NCBI GenBank assembly: GCA_022340185.1
Contig: JAJDOK010000071.1
Location: forward strand, 1 to 64,000
Length of the DNA stretch: 64,000 bases
Direction: 5' to 3'
Origin: Salaquimonas sp.
GTDB taxonomy: Bacteria > Pseudomonadota > Alphaproteobacteria > Rhizobiales > Rhizobiaceae
The notes beneath the pieces are model-generated. The model saw only the letters and a program-made list of their open reading frames with translations, searched no databases and had not been told where the DNA came from. Of the stretch, positions 28,568 through 62,413 are shown piece after piece; position 1 is the stretch's first letter; each line of letters begins with the position of its first letter. The position numbers and the translations under genes are program-made.

Positions 28568-28641
28568 GCACCCAATCTAGCGTTTCGCGCCACCATTGCC
28601 CAATACAAAGATGGTTACGCGAAGGATGAATAGCCAACCAG

Positions 28642-28732
28642 GCGGCCTAAGAGGCCGCAGACCAATGTGCATATTTGGCAGGTCGCGCCCGCGCAGGCCA
28701 TAAGCGGATCGAATTGGCCGTGAGCGAATAAA
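28642..28732. repeat. structured intergenic repeat, copy B
   Basis: GCGGC-CTAAGAG-GCCGC stem-loop, then TTGGCAGGTCGCGCCCGC and TTGGCCGTGAGCGAATAAA, blocks shared with copy A. Confidence 0.6.
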
Positions 28733-28770
28733 TGAAAAAGGTGGGTGTAAACCCCAACCATTCACCGACC

Positions 28771-41081: not shown

Positions 41082-41228
41082 TGCAGTTGCGAATTGGCGG
41101 ATATTTCTAAGCGCCGGCGGGCACGACCGCGCGCACGTCATGATCGCGCGCACATGCTGGCAACAAGCCCGGGAACACTGTCGAAAAAGGGGTCGGCCGG
41201 CTTTGGCCATGGTACGAGGAGGCCACGA

Positions 41229-41291
41229 ATGCCAACGCCGGCCGACAACCCCACGGACCCAGGAGATGCGGCGGACCTGAGCACTCCGTAG
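41229..41291 (+). CDS. candidate 20-aa small ORF
   Basis: AGGAGG at 41217-41222, 6 nt, ATG; MPTPADNPTDPGDAADLSTP then TAG. Confidence 0.3.
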   Translation: MPTPADNPTDPGDAADLSTP

Positions 41292-41496
41292 GGTATTTTG
41301 ATAACGAGGTAATTGAGTTTACTCTGAACTGGCCCTCGTTCGGATGGCGCTACTCTGGCGCAACTTATTCCTGAAATCAACACATTGGTAACCATCACCC
41401 GCGGTGTTTGCGCGTGGTGGTTAGTGGATTCGGTTAATCCGCAAAAAGACTGTGCCACTTTGAAACGGGTGGCGCCAGGAGATGACTTGCCCGGCT

Positions 41497-61360: not shown

Positions 61361-61837
61361 ATGACACCGCATGACGACAGACCGAATGTGATTCCGTGGC
61401 CGCCGATCATTTTCGTGGTGGCGCTGGCGGGCGGGTTTGCGATGGACTACATCTGGCCCATGCCATGGCCTGTCGGCATGGTGCACGACGTCCTGCAGGC
61501 AGGCGGGCTGCTTCTGGCCATGGCCGCGGCGGTGCTCTATGTCACCGCGCTGCGCGAATTGTGGCTAGCGGGCACCGCCATCCTGCCGCACCAGCAGGCT
61601 AGCCATCTGGTTACCGGCGGCCCGTTCAAGCTGACCCGCAATCCCATCTATCTCGGCAATTTCCTGCTGTTGATGGCCTTCGGCCTGGCGCTCGGCAATC
61701 TGTGGATGTTCATCGCCGCATTGTCGTCGGCCTATGCCGAACAGAAGCTCGGCATCGAACGCGAAGAGGCCCATCTGGAGCACCGCTTCGGCCGCGCCTG
61801 GCGCGATTACAGGAAAAGGGTGCGCCGCTGGGTGTGA
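61361..61837 (+). CDS. isoprenylcysteine carboxylmethyltransferase family protein
   Basis: Start MTPHDDRPNVIPWPP; LVTGGPFKLTRNPIYLGNFLLL, GIEREEAHLEHRFGRAWRDYRKRVRRWV. Confidence 0.9.
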   Translation: MTPHDDRPNVIPWPPIIFVVALAGGFAMDYIWPMPWPVGMVHDVLQAGGLLLAMAAAVLYVTALRELWLAGTAILPHQQASHLVTGGPFKLTRNPIYLGNFLLLMAFGLALGNLWMFIAALSSAYAEQKLGIEREEAHLEHRFGRAWRDYRKRVRRWV

Positions 61838-61871
61838 CGGCACCAGGGAAAAACACTGAATCTAGTGCCGA

Positions 61872-62007
61872 GCGGGTGAAGAGCCCGCCGGCCAATTCCG
61901 ACCACTTGGCAGGCCGCGCCAGCAACAAGAGGCGTTGAGGGTCGTAGACCCGATCGGGACTTAGAGATGTCCCGAGCGTAGCGAGGAATGGCTGTGAGAA
62001 AATAAAA
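61872..62007. repeat. structured intergenic repeat, copy A (three hairpins)
   Basis: GCGGG-TGAAGAG-CCCGC; GGGTC-GTA-GACCC; TCGGGAC-TTAGAGAT-GTCCCGA; shared TTGGCAGGCCGCGCCAGC and ATGGCTGTGAGAAAATAAA blocks with copy B. Confidence 0.6.
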
Positions 62008-62008
62008 A

Positions 62009-62413
62009 TCAACGTCCTACGCCCAACTCTGCGAGCCGGGCAAGGCTCGCCTCTTCCGCCTGGTCGAGTTCGCGCAGCGTCTCCTCGATGTCGCGGCGCT
62101 TCTGTTCCAGTTCGCCGCGCTTTTCGTTGACCCGCTGGATCAGGAGCCTGAGCTGGCCCTCTTCGCCCGGCGGCTCCTTGTACATGTTGAGGATTTCGCG
62201 AATTTCCGCGATCGAGAAACCGAGCCGCTTGCCGCGCAGGATGAAGGACAAGAGCCTGCGGTCGGTGGGCCGGAATAGCCGCGTGCGCCCACGCCTGAGC
62301 GGCTTGATCAGCCCCTCATCCTCATAAAAGCGGATGGTTCGCGTCGAAACGCCGAATTCGCGCGTCAGCTCGGTGATCGTGAAATATTCGCCGAGTTCCG
62401 ATTTTGCCGCCAT
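62009..62413 (-). CDS. MerR family transcriptional regulator
   Basis: 134 aa; YFTITELTREFGVSTRTIRFYEDEGLIKPLRRGRTRLFRPTDRRLLSFILRGKRLGFSIAEIREIL. Confidence 0.93.
   Translation of the reverse strand: MAAKSELGEYFTITELTREFGVSTRTIRFYEDEGLIKPLRRGRTRLFRPTDRRLLSFILRGKRLGFSIAEIREILNMYKEPPGEEGQLRLLIQRVNEKRGELEQKRRDIEETLRELDQAEEASLARLAELGVGR

Follow-up and report, generated by a model that had tools for sequence, protein, structure and literature searches.

A dispersed family of structured intergenic elements in Hyphomicrobiales and its decayed, interrupted copy beside a MerR-family gene

Copy A, a repeat between an ICMT-family and a MerR-family gene of Salaquimonas sp. (contig JAJDOK010000071.1, positions 1 to 64,000; this 64,000-nucleotide stretch is termed the window), is a decayed and interrupted member of a large family of dispersed structured elements. 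Judged from sequence comparison, the family is dispersed, structured and, provisionally, uncatalogued: Rfam 15 yielded no family above the gathering threshold for the element, and core sequence fragments had no match in a relevant context in the open-access literature, to which the search was confined, so that the novelty is provisional. The element is most likely of a mobile type and non-coding, with a single-stranded fold that is selected in place; its carrier and function are what we infer.

Copies A and B and the inserted repeat

The ICMT-family and MerR-family genes are convergent, and ICMT orthologues adjoin MerR in relatives too; in the window's own genome (G000; 3.37 Mb in 139 contigs, 84% complete) their spacer measures 171 nt and holds copy A (table 1). 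A preliminary description had placed there an element of ~136 nt with three perfect stem-loops, and these are present as described: GCGGGTGAAGAGCCCGC at 61872-61888, GGGTCGTAGACCC at 61939-61951 and TCGGGACTTAGAGATGTCCCGA at 61954-61975. A structured repeat does occupy the site (61868-62007), yet it is not a typical intact copy, being interrupted by a second repeat, REP2. It adjoins the MerR stop codon (62009-62011), as had been noted, but with a gap of one base and not two. Compared by BLAST with its own genome, copy A gave two kinds of match, one at its ends (C122 and C107) and the other in its middle alone. The 5' half is 82% identical to C122 over 50 nt (E 2.8e-7) and the 3' half 93% identical to C107 over 28 nt (E 7.7e-5), whereas REP2-like units recur, single or in tandem, at C109 (x3), C70 (x2), C98 and C46 (x3). 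Given that the middle is found elsewhere alone or in tandem, it is a separate, inserted repeat unit; it is not present in copy B or C107, and without it copy A aligns end to end with C107, copy B and C122. The second hairpin is thus the REP2 stem and the third pairs the end of REP2 with the resumed element, so that their attribution to the shared family does not hold. The insert also explains why few copies are found with copy A as query; it was the intact C107 that opened the family.

Table 1. Features at the two loci of the window
Feature	Position	Strand	Remarks
ICMT-family gene	61361..61837	+	From the ORF list, ATG 61361 taken as start; left neighbour of copy A
Copy A, 5' half	61868..61923	+	H1 61872-61888, long-loop H2 61890-61915; alignable to C107, C122 and copy B
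REP2 unit	61924..61965	+	Separate ~41-bp palindromic repeat containing hairpin GGGTCGTAGACCC; like units elsewhere in the genome
Third hairpin of the preliminary description, TCGGGAC...GTCCCGA	61954..61975	+	Straddles the insert/element junction; not a family feature
Copy A, 3' half	61966..62007	+	Contains the H3 region CCCGAGCGTAGCGAGG; 3' end rich in A
MerR-family regulator	62009..62413	-	Right neighbour of copy A; stop codon adjoins the element 3' end
Copy B, complete member	28640..28733	+	Flanked by pyrB and a divergent acyl-CoA dehydrogenase-like gene; 44.4 bits with covariance model R1

In the 3' half of copy A, the outer stem and the GGC/GCC stem have decayed, the H3 stems of this copy being broken; the match to the covariance model of the family (R1, built from 22 copies, model length 83) is weak, at 20 bits. 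Copy A is a relic, entered by the 41-bp repeat and with decayed H3 stems. Its folding energy beats 200 of 200 shuffles (z -3.4). The REP2 stem varies while keeping its pairing (GGGCC/GGCCC, GCGCC/GGCGC, GAGCC/GGCTC, GGACC/GGTCC). As a side observation, REP2 follows a family pattern of its own, AAGAGGCGNNGAG-stem-NAG-stem-CGACNGGGA, frequently in tandem and with its own paired stem variation, and besides the unit in the window it was located at L003 (85-195), L008 (1463-1540) and L013 (20-130). The ICMT-MerR spacer of the sister species G002 (L238) holds different repeats: REP2 occurs twice, together with the degenerate end of an element.

Blocks common to copies A and B had been reported upstream of pyrB, and they do exist there; for an 18-mer shared by both copies the chance expectation is 0.09 occurrences in the window. 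The change from GCGGG/CCCGC to GCGGC/GCCGC between the two copies is equally real, and pairing is kept. By folding energy copy B is not distinctive against shuffles (z -1.1), nor are C107 and C122, each taken alone; thus, the case rests on comparison and not on folding energy. The orthologous pyrB-upstream sites of G002 (PyrB 93% identical), G005, G004 and G006 are empty of the element. ATGAA occurs on both sides of copy B, which, at a single site, is not proof of target duplication.

Fold, covariation and constraint in place

An intact unit spans ~83 nt, or up to ~155 nt with a 5' hairpin (H0), and is ordered as an optional, lineage-specific H0 followed by H1, H2 and H3. The last of these is enclosed by a 3-bp stem formed at long range (NNC...GNN), which a 2-bp pseudoknot (XC...GY) crosses. 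When 60 diverse copies were aligned with MAFFT and 17 pairs counted, the pseudoknot among them, 98.9% of 1019 cells proved to be paired and both sides had changed in 170; the structure was partly derived from members of the same 60-copy set and is hence somewhat favoured by the count. The covariation score is 0.451, against 0.126 in shuffled alignments (0 of 500 reach the observed value); slid versions score no higher than 0.057. A tree-aware test on 106 copies, run with an R-scape-like script that redistributed Fitch substitutions on a FastTree tree in 30 simulations, ranked column pair 36-43 at the top (G-C 61, C-G 30, A-T 10, T-A 2), followed by 39-76, 40-75 and the stems of H2 and H3, none of which was matched by the null. 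Pair 36-43 crosses 39-76, 40-75 and 41-74; therefore, the structure is a pseudoknot. The selected folding proposed at the outset is borne out by a signal far above the shuffled, slid and tree-aware nulls.

Across copies the letters vary freely while pairing persists. For instance, H1 occurs as 41 distinct stems of at least 4 bp. H0 is lineage-specific in sequence, with CGAACCCGCAGGGTTCG in G009 and AAAAAACTCATGTGTTTTTT in G134, G204 and G233, and forms stems of at least 6 bp in 58 of 136 copies, when ~4.4 would be expected. In H3, a G-A/A-G opposition (CCGAGC...GCGAGG) is replaced elsewhere by Watson-Crick stems, such as CCAAGC/GCTTGG and TGGTGC/GCACCA, and the unpaired letters of the GYGAG internal loop are conserved.

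Close species differ in which sites hold an element. The ICMT-MerR site is without it in G003, G004 and G005, where the spacer, as read from the sequence, ranges from a few bases to a few tens; such presence/absence differences could instead reflect loss in the relatives. At five sites common to G204 and G233, the element carries 13 differences in 420 positions and the near flanks 120 in 1200 (p=2.4e-6), that is, the shared copies diverge ~3x less than their flanks in this one species pair and at these five loci. These figures, from a single species pair, suggest that it is the fold that keeps the copies in place. Gene conversion as the source of the low divergence is disfavoured, since orthologues carry copy-specific letters in common. 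Paired double changes in H0 were seen by eye between the orthologues L286 and L201 (C-G to T-A, C-G to A-T, T-A to A-T) and between L195 and L290 (T-A to C-G).

Distribution and placement relative to genes

The C107 copy found matches in 13 of 41 genomes, its own counted. With R1, the own genome gave 11 matches at E<=1, nine of them at E<0.002, and 26 of 81 genomes of the same taxonomic family matched at E<=1e-4, with 50 copies in G055, 32 in G006 and 26 in G009. Among sampled genomes of the order Hyphomicrobiales 48 of 199 matched at E<=1e-5, and in a class-wide sample of 240 just six other genomes did so at E<=1e-6, the family being rare outside the order. Carriers with a name are mainly uncultured Hyphomicrobiales, Devosia and Tepidamorphus included. 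The repeat, initially known from two loci, is thus dispersed well beyond them; with covariation also exceeding the tree-aware null, the two outcomes named beforehand as counting against it, a restriction to two loci and covariation within phylogenetic expectation, were therefore not what was found. Matches within long ORFs (L096, L104-L106, L108, L109) were considered as false positives, a view that was rejected on account of their full architecture and of ORFs that look spurious. The plasmids and phages searched gave no match, and viral contigs one exact pattern match. Two local arrangements were also seen: a tandem array in G084 (L095, C1:5735268-5737406) of ~18 near-identical copies with a 108-bp period, and close, BIME-like inverted pairs in G006 (C89, C23, C240, C183, C90).

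Gene neighbours were assigned by simple ORF calling on draft genomes and counted where both were called. Copies lie between convergent genes in 33 cases versus 14 between divergent ones; in unidirectional pairs, 29 point along the element and 22 against it, which is no significant orientation bias to co-directional genes (p=0.40). The element 3' end falls within ~8 nt of an opposing stop codon in ~19 of 64 cases and sometimes adjoins a start codon or the 3' end of a tRNA; in L158, L192, L193 and L080 it appears, by eye, to abut a tRNA 3' end on the opposite strand. A cis-regulatory element of one gene was rejected because the neighbours vary. G-U and A-C mismatches (10 versus 5, p=0.30) do not reveal the strand that is used.

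Spread, known systems and alternative readings

The Y1 transposase (PF01797) was found in controls and is lacking in 20 of the 24 genomes searched, and none of three Y1 loci examined (L143, L144, L147) has the element next to it; a RAYT as mobiliser was rejected on both counts. Reverse transcriptase (PF00078) is absent from 15 of 20 genomes, several copy-rich ones included, which excludes it as a general requirement and sets the family apart from retroelement-borne RNAs. Several copy-rich genomes have neither gene, which argues for a non-autonomous element served by other machinery; the Y1 transposase that serves classical REPs is probably not at work here. Overall, we lean towards dispersed, non-coding REP/RIME-like elements of the Hyphomicrobiales that are copied into intergenic sites and kept for their single-stranded fold. 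A protein would recognise this fold while the element spreads (in the form of ssDNA or RNA), or at the ends of transcripts where a copy sits, or in both settings; at transcript ends the fold might mark a boundary or protect the end.

The likeness to REPs is broad: these are short, intergenic, palindromic repeats in many copies, at convergent sites, near gene ends and sometimes in inverted pairs, and the element likewise is multicopy and intergenic, lies near gene 3' ends and avoids divergent promoters. REPs are enriched between convergent genes, and CGTC REPs have no dedicated transposase (Di Nocera 2013, PMC3733652), as is the case here. It is nevertheless highly improbable that the family is a long, divergent form of a known GTAG or CGTC REP, or of RIME, despite these shared habits and the inverted close pairs in G006. 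GTAG/CGTC REPs are imperfect palindromes of 20-40 bp, and CGTC stems of 8-9 bp start with A-T pairs (PMC3733652), whereas the element has four hairpins and a pseudoknot over 83-155 nt, with strong covariation and little conserved sequence. No such A-T-starting stem with a CGTC tag is found, and none of 108 copies has a conserved GTAG/CGTC end tag, CGTC occurring only as a CGCC variant between H1 and H2. REPIN/BIME elements are also dispersed hairpin repeats, and the inverted pairs in G006 recall them, but in the REPIN/RAYT arrangement repeats flank a Y1 gene, which most copy-rich genomes here do not have and which was not found next to the element at the three Y1 loci. Rickettsial palindromic elements and dRS3 (CGTC REPs) are dispersed palindromes in Proteobacteria as well, although of different architecture, and the element is, on present evidence, not an in-frame protein insert. 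MITE-type terminal inverted repeats are not evident in the element consensus, and an intrinsic terminator (GC-rich hairpin plus T run) does not fit a family 3' end that is A-rich on the sense strand. Rhizobium-specific intergenic mosaic elements (RIME), attributed to Osteras in 1995, are reportedly palindromic and about 100 nt long; by description, and not by sequence, the element resembles them in being rhizobial, intergenic, palindromic, mosaic in arrangement and about 100 nt long. Thus, of the initial choice between a REP/RIME-like repeat and an RNA family, a dispersed repeat with a selected fold stands, and membership in the GTAG/CGTC super-families does not.

The main rival to the non-autonomous-element reading is RNA action: the transcribed strand would fold into the pseudoknot and work either within 3' UTRs or as a small RNA, and the dispersal would be secondary. 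We regard this as rather unlikely, even though the pseudoknot, the exchange of tandem G-A for Watson-Crick pairs in H3, the GYGAG loop and the constraint in place are all consistent with it, as is a sense-strand G-U count slightly above A-C. Neither that count nor the orientation bias is significant, however; copy A has no promoter or intrinsic terminator that we could find, site occupancy varies among close species, and Rfam offers no match. A neutral origin, as palindromic debris whose pairing is kept by replication template switching and not by selection, appears very unlikely. Hairpins can arise and persist through template switching (PMC8794818), and H0-H2 are perfect, short, fast-changing palindromes, whose pairing could be partly maintained in this manner; yet the top covarying pair belongs to a pseudoknot that is short, and the outer 3-bp stem closes over a ~32-nt hairpin, both poor substrates for such switching, the elements evolve slower than their flanks, and the unpaired GYGAG letters are conserved. 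Template switching can explain the perfect hairpins, but hardly the pseudoknot.

Returning to non-autonomous elements kept for their fold, we tentatively raise the possibility of a pseudoknotted, order-wide family whose fold is selected copy by copy while its letters are free, which spreads without Y1 or reverse transcriptase, and which a putative host protein would recognise as a structured RNA or a structured ssDNA. Dispersed bacterial repeats are usually viewed as simple palindromes of disputed role. Here, the tens of copies per genome, orthologous and non-orthologous, covary sufficiently for a pseudoknotted fold to be fixed, and the sites they share are numerous enough for selection to be measured copy by copy; therefore, selfish debris versus functional structure becomes directly testable. 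With a calibrated family model, many intergenic regions of Hyphomicrobiales could be annotated and the search for the binding protein aided. As a separate observation, the sole gathering-level Rfam match of the window is the EcpR1 small RNA (RF02500 Atu_C6), at 41186-41296 on the minus strand, with 98.8 bits.
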